From Phycisphaeraceae bacterium D3-23 (GTDB lineage: Bacteria > Planctomycetota > Phycisphaerae > Phycisphaerales > Phycisphaeraceae), in NCBI GenBank assembly GCA_039555135.1, contig CP114179.1, forward strand, positions 682,001 to 746,000: a DNA stretch of 64,000 nt. The letters are read 5' to 3'. Each line of letters starts with the position of its first letter. The first letter of the stretch is position 1. Positions 4,569-9,409 of the stretch are shown piece by piece. The notes under the pieces are model-generated. The model searched no databases. It was given only the letters and a program-made list of their open reading frames with translations, and was not told where the DNA came from. The position numbers and the translations under genes are program-made.

Positions 4569-5981
4569 TCAGGATGCGGGCGGTGGCGGGTTGTTGCCGC
4601 CCTCTTGGCCGGGCGGGCCGCCGGGGCCTTTTCGTTTTCGTCGTCTTCGTCGGCGACGTTTTTTCTTGGGGGCTTCGCCGTCGGTGGGGGTTTGGTTTTG
4701 GGGGTTATTGTTGTCTTTGGGGAGGTTGGCGCTTAGGTCGCCTTCTTTGGATTGGACTTCGTCGCCGGTGAGGGGCTTGCCGGGCTTGGGGCGTCTTGGG
4801 GGCGACTGCTGGCCGGTCTTGTTGTTGCTGTAGCCGGCGGGCTTGTCTTGATCTTTGGGGGGTCGGGTGTCGGTGTTGCCTGGCTGGGGCTTGGCGCCTT
4901 GTTGCGGTGGTTTTGCGGCGGCGCGGGGGGGCTTTGGGCCGGGCTTTTGCTGCGTGCGGGGCTGCGGGGGTTGGGGGCGTCGTCGGCCGTCGTCTCGGAC
5001 CTGGCCGGGGTCGCCGAACTCGGCGCGCCAGGCGGCGGTTTCTTCTTTGTTGAGTTGTCGGATGTTTTCGATGGGGTAGGCGGCGGGCGGGTTGACGCCG
5101 ATCTTGACGAGGGCGAGCTGGGTGAGGATCTGCGAGCTGAGCACGACGCCGACGCCGTCCTCGGTCTCGACGAGGGACTTTCGGTGCGGGAGTAGTTTTT
5201 TGAGTTCGCTGTAGGTCTGGTCCTCGTAGCGGAGGCAGCACATGAGTCGGCCGCAGCGGCCCGAGATTTTCTGCGGGTCGAGGGTGTTCTTCTGGACTTT
5301 CGCGGTGCGCATCGAGACGGGCTTGAGGACCTTGAGGAACTGCCGGCAGCAGCAGTGCTGGCCGCACTTTTCGTAGTCGGCGACGAGGCGGGCCTCCTCG
5401 CGGTCGCTGACGTGGATCATCTCGATCCGGGTCTGGAGCTCGGAGGCGAGCCGACGGACAAGCTCACGGAAGTCGACGCGGTCCTCGGCGGTGAAGTAGA
5501 ACGAGACCTGCTCGTCGCCCAGGACGAACTCGACCTCGACGAGGTTCATGGGGAGCTTGAGTTCTTCGATGAGCTTCTTGCAGCCGCGGACGACGGCGGG
5601 CTTTCTTGCGTCGAGGCGGGTCTGTTCGTTGAGGTCGTCGATGGTGGCGACCCGGAGGATTTTGCCGCGTGTGGTGAAGGGGTAGTTTTTGCCGCCGGAG
5701 TTTTCGATGTACTGGAGCATCTCTTTGCGTGAGACGCTTTTGCCGCACCCGCTATTGGAGCAGGTGGTGGTGAGCATTTCGACGAGCTCGGTGCCGCGGG
5801 GGGTGACGGCGACGAGCTTTGAGCCGCAGCCGGGCTTGGCGTCGCCGTTATAGGGGAGCTCGGCGACCATGCGTTCGTAGCCGTAGCGTACGACCATGGA
5901 CTTGGGGGCTTCGAGCGCGTCGTAGATTTTCTGGTCCGCTTCTTCCAGCATGACTGGGAGCGGGACGATGGTGCCTGGCAT
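4569..5981 (-). CDS. RicT-like protein with PSP1 C-terminal domain
   Basis: The 470-residue protein has a PSP1 domain (about residues 95-290) like Bacillus YaaT/RicT, which works with RicA and RicF in an Fe-S complex that affects RNase Y and cell-fate signalling. The Cys-rich core is visible as CGQHCCCRQFLK and, 35 residues on, GRCGRLMCCLRYE. An upstream Cys cluster (CSNSGCGKS, about residue 75) is less usual. The last about 140 residues are Pro/Gln/Lys-rich with a run of arginines (KKKRRRRRRRKRKG), suggesting RNA binding; most bacterial homologues lack this tail. The start is chosen for GGAG seven bases upstream. The gene stands alone, ahead of a terminator hairpin. Confidence 0.85.
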   Translation of the reverse strand: MPGTIVPLPVMLEEADQKIYDALEAPKSMVVRYGYERMVAELPYNGDAKPGCGSKLVAVTPRGTELVEMLTTTCSNSGCGKSVSRKEMLQYIENSGGKNYPFTTRGKILRVATIDDLNEQTRLDARKPAVVRGCKKLIEELKLPMNLVEVEFVLGDEQVSFYFTAEDRVDFRELVRRLASELQTRIEMIHVSDREEARLVADYEKCGQHCCCRQFLKVLKPVSMRTAKVQKNTLDPQKISGRCGRLMCCLRYEDQTYSELKKLLPHRKSLVETEDGVGVVLSSQILTQLALVKIGVNPPAAYPIENIRQLNKEETAAWRAEFGDPGQVRDDGRRRPQPPQPRTQQKPGPKPPRAAAKPPQQGAKPQPGNTDTRPPKDQDKPAGYSNNKTGQQSPPRRPKPGKPLTGDEVQSKEGDLSANLPKDNNNPQNQTPTDGEAPKKKRRRRRRRKRKGPGGPPGQEGGNNPPPPAS

Positions 5982-6062
5982 GGGGGGACTCCGGCGGAAA
6001 TGGCCAAAAAAAGCGATGACCTGCCACCATGCTAGCAGGGCTGGGGCAAGCGTTCTTGGATC

Positions 6063-6155
6063 GGGTGCCGGGTCTGGGGTTTGGGGTCTGGGAACGCGCG
6101 CCGCCGTGTGCCGTCATCGGGCGCAACCCGGGACCCGGAACCCGAGACCCGAGTC
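6063..6155. repeat. Heptad-arm palindromic element HA1
   Basis: The left arm 6063-6093 is a series of G-rich heptads (GGGTGCC GGGTCTG GGGTTTG GGGTCTG). The right arm 6126-6153 is the C-rich counterpart (ACCCGGGACCCGGAACCCGA and on). The right arm abuts the stop codon of metF at 6154-6156. The left arm fits a G-quadruplex consensus. Confidence 0.7.
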
Positions 6156-7086
6156 AGCCGCCGCCCAGGGCGATGCTGTCGCTGACGCCGAGGTTGCGGT
6201 AGATCTCGCGGGTGGCGGTTGACTGGTTGAGTGTGTAGAAGTGGATGCCGCGGGCTTTGTGGTCCAAGAGGTCGCGGCACTGCTCGGTGGCCCAGTGGAT
6301 GCCGACGCGCTGGATGGCGTCTTCGTCGCCCTCGCATCGGGCGACGGCGCGGAGGAGTTTGGCGGGGTAGCGTGCGCCGGCGGCGAGCTCGGCCATGCGT
6401 TTCATGCCCTTGCCCGAGGTGATGGGCATGATGCCGGCGATGATGGGGACGTTGATGCCGGCGAGCTCGCAGCGCTCGCGGAAGTCGTAGAAGTCGTGGT
6501 TGCTGAAGAAGAGCTGGGTGCAGATGTAGTCGGCGCCGGCGTCGATCTTCTGCTTGAGGTGGTCCATCTCGAGGAGGCGGTTGGGGGTGGCGGGGTGGCC
6601 TTCGGGGAAGCCGGCGACGCCAACACCAAACCCCCGCCCCCGGAAGTTGGGGACTCGTTCAGACAAGGCCGACTCGACACGACGGATATAGCCCACGAGG
6701 TCGGCGGCGTGATGGAAGGCGTCCTGGCTGCGGTCGTAGTCGGGCTTGTCGCTGGGCGGGTCGCCCCCCAGGGCGAGGACGTTGCATACGCCTTCGCCGG
6801 CGTAGCGCTCGAGGATGTCGGCGATCTCGGCCTCGCTGTGGCAGACGCAGGTGAGGTGCGGGACGGCGGTGACGCCGAGCTCGCGACGGATGCGGAGCAC
6901 GAGGTCGTGCGTCAGCTCGCGCGTCGAGCCGCCCGCGCCGTAGGTCACGGACACAAACGATGGCTTGAGCGCGGCGAGCTCGGCGACGTTGTCGTAGAGC
7001 TTCTGCGCCGCCGAAGGCGACTTGGGCGGGAAGAACTCGAAGGAGAAGGTCGTGCTGTATCGCTCGAAGACGTCACGGATGTGCAT
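6154..7086 (-). CDS. metF: 5,10-methylenetetrahydrofolate reductase
   Basis: The 310-residue FAD-dependent TIM-barrel enzyme reduces methylene-THF to methyl-THF for methionine synthesis. The N-terminal FSFEFFPPKS motif, SVTYGAGGSTRE, the LALGGDPP segment and GVAGFPEGHP are all present, and the length fits bacterial MetF. The start is the ATG at 7086, six bases after a perfect TATAAT, with no Shine-Dalgarno sequence, so a leaderless mRNA is likely. It is divergent from the acetylesterase-like gene at 7159. Its stop codon touches palindromic element HA1. Confidence 0.95.
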   Translation of the reverse strand: MHIRDVFERYSTTFSFEFFPPKSPSAAQKLYDNVAELAALKPSFVSVTYGAGGSTRELTHDLVLRIRRELGVTAVPHLTCVCHSEAEIADILERYAGEGVCNVLALGGDPPSDKPDYDRSQDAFHHAADLVGYIRRVESALSERVPNFRGRGFGVGVAGFPEGHPATPNRLLEMDHLKQKIDAGADYICTQLFFSNHDFYDFRERCELAGINVPIIAGIMPITSGKGMKRMAELAAGARYPAKLLRAVARCEGDEDAIQRVGIHWATEQCRDLLDHKARGIHFYTLNQSTATREIYRNLGVSDSIALGGG

Positions 7087-7092
7087 GGCTGG

Positions 7093-7098
7093 ATTATA
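7093..7098 (-). promoter_or_regulatory. metF -10 box (TATAAT), six bases from ATG
   Basis: TATAAT on the minus strand is followed by CCAGCC and the ATG. Transcription would begin at or within a base or two of the start codon. No good -35 is seen. Confidence 0.65.
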
Positions 7099-7123
7099 TC
7101 CGAATATCCGGATGAGCGGATGA

Positions 7124-7152
7124 TTGAGGCCGGCTTTGTGCCCCGGTACACT
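7124..7152 (+). promoter_or_regulatory. Promoter of the SASA-like esterase gene, leaderless geometry
   Basis: TTGAGG at 7124-7129, a 17-base spacer, TACACT at 7147-7152, then six bases to the ATG at 7159. This is the best sigma-70-like promoter in the window. Confidence 0.7.
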
Positions 7153-7158
7153 CTGGGG

Positions 7159-8103
7159 ATGCGAAACATCCCCCTGCTATGCATTCTAATCTGCTCGTTG
7201 TCCGTTTTCGCGGGGTCCGCTGCGGGTCAGCCGGCGGCAGAGGCGGAGCGACCCACGGTGGATGTGTATCTGCTGGCGGGGCAGTCGAACATGCAGGGCG
7301 TGGGGGAGGTGGCGGAGTTGCCGGCGACGTGGCTTGAGCCGATTGAGGGGGTGTACTTTTGGCATCGCGATGCTTTCCGGATGCTGGACCCGGGCACGTC
7401 GCCGATCTCGGCTCGGCCGGGCAAGTTCGGGCCCGAGCTCGGGTTTGCGCGGTCGATGCGGATGCTTAAACCTGTGCAGGAAATCTACCTGGTGAAGTTC
7501 TACCGTAGCGGCCAACCGCTGCACCATGGGTGGGACGGCAACCAGTGGGTCGGTGGCGACCCGGCCATCGGCCGACGCAATTTCTACCCGGGCGAGACCG
7601 AAGATGACGACATGGTCGGCTCGCACTACGCGGCGATGCTGACGATGGCTCGGACGGCATTTGCGCACCTGCAGTCGGAGGGCTACGAGCCGGTGCTGCG
7701 CGGGGTGGTGTGGATGCAGGGCGAAGCCGATGCTAAAAACGAAACCTCGGCCGACGAGTACGCGGAGAGTTTGGCGCGGCTCAAGCGTCGGATCGAAGAA
7801 GACCTCGACAGTGAGCCGGCGCCCTTCGTGTTTGGCCAGGTGCTTGCGCACGAGCCGGCGCTCGACCGCTTCACCGATCGGCCGCGGCTGCGCGAGCGGA
7901 TGGCGCAGGCGGATATGCGCAGCGGCGACGAGCGCGCGATTGAGGGGGTTTGGATGGTGCCGACCGAGGGCATGCCGCTCAACAACGACACGGTGCACTA
8001 CAACACCGAGGGGATGCGGCTGCTGGGCACGGCGTTTGGCATCGCGATGGTGCAGGCGCAGCATGCACTGGCGGCGCGGGCCAACGAAGACGACGCAGAG
8101 TAG
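7159..8103 (+). CDS. Secreted sialate O-acetylesterase-like (SASA/SGNH) protein
   Basis: The 314-residue protein has a signal peptide (MRNIPLLCILICSLSVFAGS). The SASA-family nucleophile block DVYLLAGQSNMQG follows at about residue 35, with a central VVWMQGEADA and a C-terminal D-x2-H (NNDTVHYN), consistent with a Ser-His-Asp SGNH hydrolase. The family removes acetyl groups from sugars and is abundant in polysaccharide-degrading planctomycetes. The start is fixed by the promoter six bases upstream and the signal peptide. A longer open frame continues upstream but only as antisense of metF. Confidence 0.85.
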   Translation: MRNIPLLCILICSLSVFAGSAAGQPAAEAERPTVDVYLLAGQSNMQGVGEVAELPATWLEPIEGVYFWHRDAFRMLDPGTSPISARPGKFGPELGFARSMRMLKPVQEIYLVKFYRSGQPLHHGWDGNQWVGGDPAIGRRNFYPGETEDDDMVGSHYAAMLTMARTAFAHLQSEGYEPVLRGVVWMQGEADAKNETSADEYAESLARLKRRIEEDLDSEPAPFVFGQVLAHEPALDRFTDRPRLRERMAQADMRSGDERAIEGVWMVPTEGMPLNNDTVHYNTEGMRLLGTAFGIAMVQAQHALAARANEDDAE

Positions 8104-8299: not shown

Positions 8300-9409
8300 T
8301 TAGTTGCGTCGGTCGTTGTACTGGAAGGGGTAGAACCAGACGTAGCCCTCCATATCGCCGACGAGCAGGTCCATGTCGCCGTCACCGTCGTAATCGACGA
8401 CCTCGACGGTGGAGCGTGTGCCGTTGCGGTCGCCGGTGTGATTAAGATCATAGAGGGGCTGCACCACTTCTTCGCGGGGCGCGAAGGCCGGTTCACCGGG
8501 CTCGCCGACGTTGCAGAACCAGACGACTTCGGCGTTGGCGCCGCTGGAGATAATGTCGAACTTGCCGTCGGCGTTCCAGTCCGCGACGACAGGGATCGCG
8601 TGGGTCAGGTGGGTGCCCAGCGGCTCGCCGTTGGTCGCCATGAGTTCGGTGTTGAGCGCGGCGTAGACGGGCCCGGACCGGCTGCCGATGTTCTCGCGCA
8701 GGTAGAGCCGGCCGCTGCTTGCGCCTAGGAGGATGTCGAGGTCGCCGTCGGCGTCCCAGTCGACCAAGGTAAATCCTTCGCTGCGGTCACCCTTGGCCTG
8801 GCCGGAGGCGTCGTCGGCGAAAGGCATCGGGTCCATCGGGAGATAGCCGGTCTCTTCGCCTTCGTAGACGTAGTGGACGCCGAGCGCGATCTCGTTGCCG
8901 TTCTCGTCTTTGATCGTCACAGGTGCGGCGAAACCGTCTTCGTTGCCCAGCGCGACGTAGCTCTGCCCGCCGAAGCCGCCGGCGATGATATCCATGTGGC
9001 CGTCGCCGTTGTAGTCCACCAACTGGGGACGCAACGACGTGCATCACCAGTTCTTGAAGACGAGTAGTTCGCCGTCGGCCATGCGCACGGGCTCGGCGTC
9101 TGCGTAGGGCGCGGCGCTGTCGGTGCCGAGCCCTTTATAGAAGAAGATGTTGCCGAAGATGTCGCCAACCAGCAGGTCGGGCGTGCCGTCGGCATCGAAG
9201 TCGGCGACGTGAGGCCCGGCGTGGCCACGGCCGCTGCGGGGGACGCCGTCCATCGCGACGCGGAGGTTGATCACGCCCGACTGGGACTGCACCCGGGTGG
9301 GCGACAGGAAGCGGCCATTCCCACCGGCGGGGTTGCCCGCCGAGACGGGCCCGGCGAGTGCGAGAGCCATCGCGGCACCGAGCAGCAAGGAAGTCTGCGC
9401 CATGATCAT
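8300..9409 (-). CDS. Secreted FG-GAP/VCBS repeat protein with in-frame TGA (candidate selenoprotein)
   Basis: A signal peptide (MAQTSLLLGAAMALALAG) is followed by FG-GAP/VCBS repeats with Ca-binding-like loops (DFDADGTPD, DYNGDGHMD, DWDADGDLD, DWNADGKFD, DYDGDGDMD), typical of extracellular beta-propellers. An in-frame TGA at 9046-9044 falls between LLVFKNW and CTSLRPQLVDYNGDG. The frame and the repeat pattern continue undisturbed on both sides, giving about 369 residues in all. The codon after TGA is Cys. A stem-loop can be drawn just downstream, so selenocysteine is possible; a nonsense mutation is the simpler alternative. ATG 9409 or 9403 both fit, with AAAGG upstream. A terminator follows the gene. 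Confidence 0.7.
9004..9043 (-). promoter_or_regulatory. Possible bacterial SECIS-like hairpin after the TGA
   Basis: Just after the TGA, CGTCGTTG can pair with CAAC...GACG about 30 bases later. Inside, GTCC/GGAC and CC/GG form an upper stem with a single bulged U and an apical loop AGTT about 19 bases from the TGA. This meets the loose rules for bacterial SECIS elements. It is a by-eye fold only. Confidence 0.3.

Follow-up and report, generated by a model that had tools for sequence, protein, structure and literature searches.

The window, a stretch of 64,000 nucleotides from the genome of Phycisphaeraceae bacterium D3-23, carries on its reverse strand a gene for an FG-GAP repeat protein whose reading frame is crossed by a TGA codon. 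The following features were located in this gene:

8300..9409, reverse strand: FG-GAP repeat gene, very probably a selenoprotein gene (TGA-readthrough translation, Pfam and homologues)
9338..9409, reverse strand: probable signal peptide, residues 1 to about 24 (by eye, a hydrophobic stretch that ends in Val-Ser-Ala)
9044..9046, reverse strand: in-frame TGA, very probably the selenocysteine (Sec) codon, residue 122 (homologue conservation)
9041..9043, reverse strand: TGC for Cys123, second half of the Sec-Cys pair (Cys in 112 of 113 TGA sequences)

The gene starts at ATG 9409 or 9403, ends at TAA 8302-8300 and encodes 369 residues with Sec at position 122; the TGA at 9046-9044 is the sole stop inside the frame 9409-8300. 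The original prediction of a secreted FG-GAP protein read straight through this TGA, with repeats on both sides of it and a TGC as the following codon, agrees with these data. The frame is open from either ATG to the TAA, the next codon (9043-9041) is TGC, and a signal-like hydrophobic N-terminus, judged by eye, precedes the TGA. Pfam FG-GAP_3 (PF13517, five stretches) scores 72.8 bits against a gathering cut-off of 26.9 and FG-GAP (PF01839) 44 bits against 22.1, while in the predicted structure the TGA falls between the first blade and the other four. No NCBIfam model fits the protein, the best having an E-value of 0.12 and lying below its cut-off.

The gene has a DUF2203 gene and an RND efflux pair as its upstream neighbours and, downstream on the opposite strand, an esterase with a SASA domain; none of these gives a hint of function. 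Recurrent neighbours were also sought in 21 family loci, where no conserved genes pointing to a reaction were found: the search returned no more than the gene's own antisense frame, in nine loci, and one FG-GAP cluster, in two. No family matches on plasmids were detected by tblastn.

In the GC-rich DNA of this window, frames that stay open before and after a TGA are no rarity. Across its six frames, 14 TGA junctions have 120 or more open codons in front and 200 or more behind, and TGA terminates 18 of the 36 non-overlapping ORFs of 200 codons or more that were picked mechanically. Readthrough is lifted above chance by homology, and not by the length of the frame alone.

Homologues and the Sec column

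When 397 genomes of the class were searched with a single sequence, 32 yielded matches, the genome of origin included. Sixteen of the 45 matches listed hold one TGA; among the other 29, 28 start past residue 122, and the remaining one (L044), which covers that position, reads Gly. Seventeen members were picked from the class matches for a UC or CC motif to form a profile (A1), so the resulting sample leans towards Sec and Cys members. With this profile, family matches at an E-value of 1e-30 or better were found in 100 of 392 genomes of the phylum, and 123 of the 133 matches listed hold exactly one TGA, the remainder being seven full-length sequences without TGA and three fragments beside the site. 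Ninety of the 133 were retrieved, of which 83 carry TGA at the Sec column and seven TGC or TGT (L159, L178-L183); for 40 of the 123 one-TGA matches, it is known only that the one TGA lies inside the match. Counted by genome, 93 of the 392 sampled Planctomycetota genomes have members with TGA, and seven have Cys members only. Both genome searches read through every stop and count each, and neither TAA nor TAG occurs among the matches listed (45 in the class, 133 in the phylum).

The column was aligned in 150 distinct sequences, including that of the window; all frames in this alignment had been ended at any TAA or TAG, which therefore could not appear in it. TGA is present in 114, TGC or TGT in 14 and other codons in 22, counts in which related sequences are not independent. 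The 14 Cys sequences were reduced to 11 by dropping L231, L043 and L035 as misaligned; L231 carries its UC motif one step further on. The Cys homologues that the original prediction had proposed to look for at the TGA position are these 11, and the residue at the column depends on similarity as follows:

At least 300 bits (86 distinct homologues): 75 TGA, 11 Cys, no other residue
250-300 bits (14): 12 TGA, 2 other
200-250 bits (26): 21 TGA, 2 nominal Cys, 3 other
Below 200 bits (24): 6 TGA, 1 nominal Cys, 17 other

Sense codons other than Cys, which had been named as a sign against Sec, are thus absent at 300 bits and above (0 of 86) and present only in divergent relatives and in L240, a Gly-Cys type from the phylum of Rubritalea. 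By eye, many of the divergent non-Cys relatives are FG-GAP proteins whose alignment at the column is unreliable. Asp, Gly, Ser or Glu stand at the Sec column in L077, L044-L048, L108, L240 and the second gene of L085, which suggests that the Sec-Cys pair is dispensable in some FG-GAP relatives. Among these, L044-L048, L108 and L240 form, together with L039, a divergent FG-GAP group that keeps the second Cys only and has Gly or Ser in the place of Sec. L077, a relative at 290 bits, has GAC AAC (Asp-Asn) replacing Sec-Cys, perhaps another natural loss. In L085, from Candidatus Aegiribacteria, Sec and non-Sec copies adjoin, a TGA member (4884-6092) being followed at about 6300-7500 by a paralogue with GAA ACC (Glu-Thr).

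The codon after the TGA encodes Cys in 112 of 113 TGA sequences. The sole exception (L074:5181-5186) reads TGA GAC (Sec-Asp), which counts against an obligatory Sec-Cys pair. The genome of origin itself holds a second FG-GAP gene (G000:C1:260736-261911, L051), which shares TGA TGC and the hairpin and belongs to a VSGVWUCTSSTPQ subtype.

TGA members are not confined to Planctomycetota. They also occur, according to labels taken from the titles of metagenome bins, in Verrucomicrobiales, Rubritalea, a Bacteroidales bin and Candidatus Aegiribacteria. In the phylum of Rubritalea, four of 288 genomes match, and three of them hold TGA members; the fourth (G898) has a Gly-Cys type without TGA. The Rubritalea genome G748, one of the three, holds four family members with one TGA each in 2.7 Mb. 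One of its members lies about 2.5 kb from selA, a proximity that was not used as evidence, as three other ORFs lie between them.

The history of the column was followed in a FastTree tree of the 125 sequences that score at least 150 bits and read TGA, TGC or TGT at the site, a selection that makes the full conservation of the Sec column among them a matter of construction. Under midpoint rooting, the root is Sec, and three Sec-to-Cys changes, leading to clades of seven, three and one sequences, account for the distribution, compared to at least nine in 200 shuffles. Three replacements of Sec by Cys thus seem to have taken place, and each of them seems, from the sequences, to have been accompanied by the loss of the hairpin described below.

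The SECIS hairpin

The original prediction drew a hairpin with a bulged U and a small loop about 19 bases downstream of the TGA, like bacterial SECIS elements (bSECIS), and such a structure is present:

9004..9039, reverse strand: SECIS hairpin (fold and covariation of the apical stem)

Its lower helix joins 9039-9032 to 9011-9004 in eight pairs, and its apical stem pairs 9030-9025 with 9020-9019 and 9017-9014 in six, leaving U 9018 bulged and an AGUU loop at 9024-9021 that begins 19 nt downstream of the TGA. From the TGA onwards, a stretch of 43 nt folds with -18.8 kcal/mol (z -2.75), and none of 200 shuffles is as good. Published bSECIS constraints comprise a loop of 3-9 nt with a G in its first two positions, an upper stem of 4-16 bp, a spacing of 16-37 nt between UGA and loop and a minimum free energy (MFE) of at most -7.5 (PMC13188914); with 19 nt, AGUU, six apical pairs and -18.8, the window hairpin falls within all of them.

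The apical stem is shared by the family. All five pairs of a five-pair apical stem form in 101 of 113 TGA sequences and four of the five in the other 12, L085 being left out of these counts for a one-codon insertion, although its hairpin is visible in the alignment. The pairs are mostly U-A, C-G, C-G, A-U and C-G, closed by loops such as AGUUU or AGGUU, and the apical 18 nt have an MFE of -4.7 to -11.0 (mean -7.23) in the 113 sequences. In all 11 Cys homologues, on the other hand, the stem is lost (2-4 pairs, MFE 0 to -1.6) while the amino acids are largely kept; even L159, with four nominal pairs, reaches just -1.2.

Codon choice at the stem points in the same direction. Val is encoded there by GTG in 94 of 94 cases, compared to 36% of 3440 elsewhere in the same genes, and Pro by CCA in 76 of 102, compared to 9% of 3221, a background whose upstream codons may include a little non-coding sequence. 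The two choices are coupled: 74 sequences combine CCA with GTG, 16 CCG with GCG and six CCG with GTG (a G-U pair), and none combines CCA with GCN, so that Ala in place of Val goes with the Pro codon CCG and not with CCA. The four CCC cases, the type found in the window, all go with TTG GTG, which lets a U bulge out. When synonymous codons were shuffled within columns (n = 200), the mean MFE was -6.28 (sd 0.09, lowest -6.49), compared to the observed -7.23.

Covariation was measured in 46 sequences, no two of them more than 82% identical. Stem cells are paired in 98.3%, compared to 94.9% in shuffles and 23-51% when the stem is slid, and 10 cells are changed on both sides, compared to 2.0 in shuffles, with none of 500 as high. 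Two other measures in these sequences are not outstanding, namely the number of pairs with a double change (two, compared to 1.0, with 44 of 500 shuffles as high) and the number of pair types (equalled or exceeded in 462 of 500 shuffles). RNAalifold recovers the same helix, and the six TGA members from the Rubritalea phylum, which were found after the stem had been defined, all form five of five pairs, L238 being a repeat of L088. An Rfam search at the site, up to an E-value of 10, gave six matches, all chance-like and none of them a SECIS. The bacterial SECIS suggested for the window thus conforms to the published constraints, and its apical stem covaries across homologues.

Sec machinery and the reading of the TGA

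The genome of origin encodes all four components that the original prediction proposed to look for, selA, selB, selC and selD; their absence had been named as grounds for rejection. The tRNA-Sec scores 65.3 bits (cut-off 47) and is called SeC(tca) by ARAGORN; selB (360.6 bits) and selA (522.2 bits) lie side by side at 3626090-3629622, both over their cut-offs, and selD (360.8 bits) is over its curated cut-off. This selD is itself a selenoprotein gene, with an in-frame TGA in DYADCGGUAGK (G000:C1:3621249-3622178, L018), a context that corresponds to the UxxK motif of the 2026 inventory.

Across the phylum, selA is found at an E-value of 1e-20 or better in 246 of 392 genomes, 239 of them over the cut-off. 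By the same threshold, it is present in 90 of the 93 genomes with TGA members, compared to one of the seven with Cys members only (Fisher p 4.8e-7), and in 155 of the 292 without a family match. Two of the three TGA genomes without a selA match (G559 and G701) have selB over its cut-off and the third (G595) has neither, and all three are 77-82% complete. G573 holds the Cys form despite having selA and selB. The selA test covered nine of the genomes behind the 11 Cys homologues, and in eight of them no match reaches the cut-off. Among genomes of named loci, selA is over the cut-off in 12 of 12 with TGA members and in neither of two with Cys members, a test covering 12 of the 17 TGA loci, in which some genomes seem to repeat the 392 (same contig positions).

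Sec is thus very probably inserted at the TGA at 9046-9044 of the FG-GAP protein, a reading of the sequence supported by the Sec machinery, the Cys homologues and the covarying hairpin. It has also been considered that the codon is read as Cys or Trp, either by near-cognate readthrough or with the help of a variant tRNA. Since close homologues replace it by nothing but Cys, a Cys reading would fit the alignment too; however, TGA members track selA (90 of 93 compared to one of seven), the hairpin is restricted to TGA forms, and TGA is the terminal stop of the family genes in L068, L070, L071, L074, L075 and L079, which indicates that the code is not reassigned. A global code change and near-cognate readthrough were both rejected, and decoding of this kind is very improbable. 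A true stop, splitting the gene as a pseudogene or through a sequencing error, was rejected as still less credible: TGA does end 18 of the 36 long ORFs of the window and long frames around a TGA arise by chance in such GC-rich DNA (the 14 junctions), but the same TGA is found in 114 distinct sequences from many genera and several phyla, the stop counts of both genome searches include no TAA or TAG, and the two halves of the gene are conserved, along with the pattern of hairpin and Cys substitution.

SelA, SelB, SelD and tRNA-Sec(UCA) are encoded in the genome. Under the Sec reading, SelB, bound to the hairpin that starts 4 nt after the UGA, would deliver Sec-tRNA at UGA 9046-9044 and translation would continue with Sec in place of a stop, a step strongly supported by sequence and whose mechanism is taken from established knowledge of SelB. 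Without selenium, a truncated product of 121 residues would be expected.

Predicted fold and the Sec-Cys pair

The protein is predicted to be exported and to fold into a five-bladed, calcium-binding propeller. An AlphaFold2 model built with 20 sequences (mean pLDDT 81.6, pTM 0.82) holds five blades, the TGA lying between blade 1 and blade 2:

9137..9217, reverse strand: predicted blade 1, residues 65-91 (AlphaFold2 model strands)
8951..9025, reverse strand: predicted blade 2, residues 129-153 (AlphaFold2 model strands)
8330..8782, reverse strand: predicted blades 3 to 5, residues 210-240, 272-298 and 334-360 (AlphaFold2 model strands)

Most family rows also hold an insertion near the C-terminus (residues 330-383 of L082, helical in the model of that protein), which is absent from the window protein.

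In the model, the loop that leads into the first strand of blade 2 carries the Sec-Cys pair, which puts the pair at the far end of the blade from the DxDxDG calcium loop. It is at that blade end that five-bladed propeller enzymes have their active sites, in the case of the glycosidases in a central funnel, and the model suggests that the pair is placed where these enzymes carry theirs. In integrins, calcium loops and the FG-GAP motif are described at opposite blade ends (PMC3192720). The Cys after Sec is 99% conserved among the 125 members, a level that, apart from the residues of the calcium loops and some Gly, Pro and Trp, few positions match.

The closest solved folds according to VIA-align are five-bladed glycosidases (5b6s, Z 18.4 over 262 residues at 3.6 A), and Foldseek TM-scores by query range from 0.19 to 0.49 among the best 50 matches. 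Families GH62, GH43, GH130 and GH32 share with the window protein the fold only, with an identity of 13% or less among the VIA-align matches listed, and were rejected as functional relatives, as the structure searches gave no more than a fold. Sec is not known to occur in the five-bladed propeller glycosidases of these four families. With FG-GAP and integrin-type propellers (PF13517, PF01839), the protein shares repeats over the cut-off and calcium loops of the DxDxDG type. However, integrins have seven blades, compared to the five predicted here, which sets the protein outside the seven-bladed integrin type, and unlike those propellers it holds a Sec-Cys pair before the conserved Pro of blade 2.

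By analogy with the funnel active sites of the five-bladed glycosidases, Sec122-Cys123 is proposed to be an extracytoplasmic redox site, most likely alternating between a selenolate and a Sec-Cys selenenylsulfide, a role that could about equally well prove right or wrong. Another possibility, a serious one if somewhat short of even, is that the pair is non-catalytic and serves in soft-metal binding, in the storage or carriage of selenium or as a structural vicinal bond. The failure to find a conserved neighbour gene in 21 loci would fit such a role, as would the solved relatives by sequence, among which binding proteins (integrins and lectins, for example) prevail, and the adjacent Cys-Sec of metal-linked families (CU in SaoL, HgcA and MbdU; PMC13188914). 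On the other hand, most uncharacterised selenoproteins are expected to serve redox functions (PMC13188914), and the neighbouring Cys and the replacement of Sec by Cys fit a redox pair at least as well.

Compared to prokaryotic selenoproteins at large (PMC13188914), the family shares the in-frame UGA, the downstream hairpin, the Cys homologues and the Sec machinery, as well as a G in the first two loop positions and a spacing, 19 nt, within the range of 16-37 nt. Most characterised selenoproteins have a thioredoxin-like fold (PMC13188914), unlike the propeller predicted here. Sec next to Cys, according to the motif column of the inventory, is also found in CopZ-like proteins, SaoL, HgcA and KCU-star (adjacent CU or GxUC), which belong to other domain families and are set apart by their descriptions in the inventory.

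That 2026 inventory comprises 119 prokaryotic selenoprotein families and subfamilies, and also lists those of Haft and Tolstoy 2025 (PMC13188914). Neither its Table 1 nor NCBIfam contains an FG-GAP or propeller family, and a text search of the literature for FG-GAP, propeller or VCBS selenoproteins found none, Haft and Tolstoy 2025 and Deng et al. 2026 being outside its scope; a paper on a selenium-binding protein that it returned concerns a different thing. None is named in the passages covered of deep-Sep (with its Table 3), of the 2016 bacterial survey, of the 2006 survey or of the work on Porphyra planctomycete genomes. A family of Sec-containing FG-GAP propellers is therefore absent from the published selenoprotein inventory, with a candidate in the papers outside the scope of the search being possible.

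The family adds to the selenoproteome a widespread group with an unexpected fold, and TGA members are found in 90 of the 246 Planctomycetota genomes bearing selA. It may tentatively be seen as a large, ancestrally Sec-containing family of secreted propeller selenoenzymes, with a fold new to the catalogue and a reaction new for selenoenzymes, and as one reason why Planctomycetota keep selenocysteine, although this broader view is rather more doubtful than likely. The reaction of the Sec-Cys propeller is now open to testing, and the occurrence of Sec and Cys forms in related genomes provides a natural experiment on the benefit of Sec in a secreted propeller. Such genes are probably hidden by standard annotation, which would end them at the TGA. 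The filter of deep-Sep requires known Sec homologues, or Cys homologues among the top hits, a requirement that contrasts with a family in which Sec forms dominate (114, compared to 11 Cys forms in this sample).
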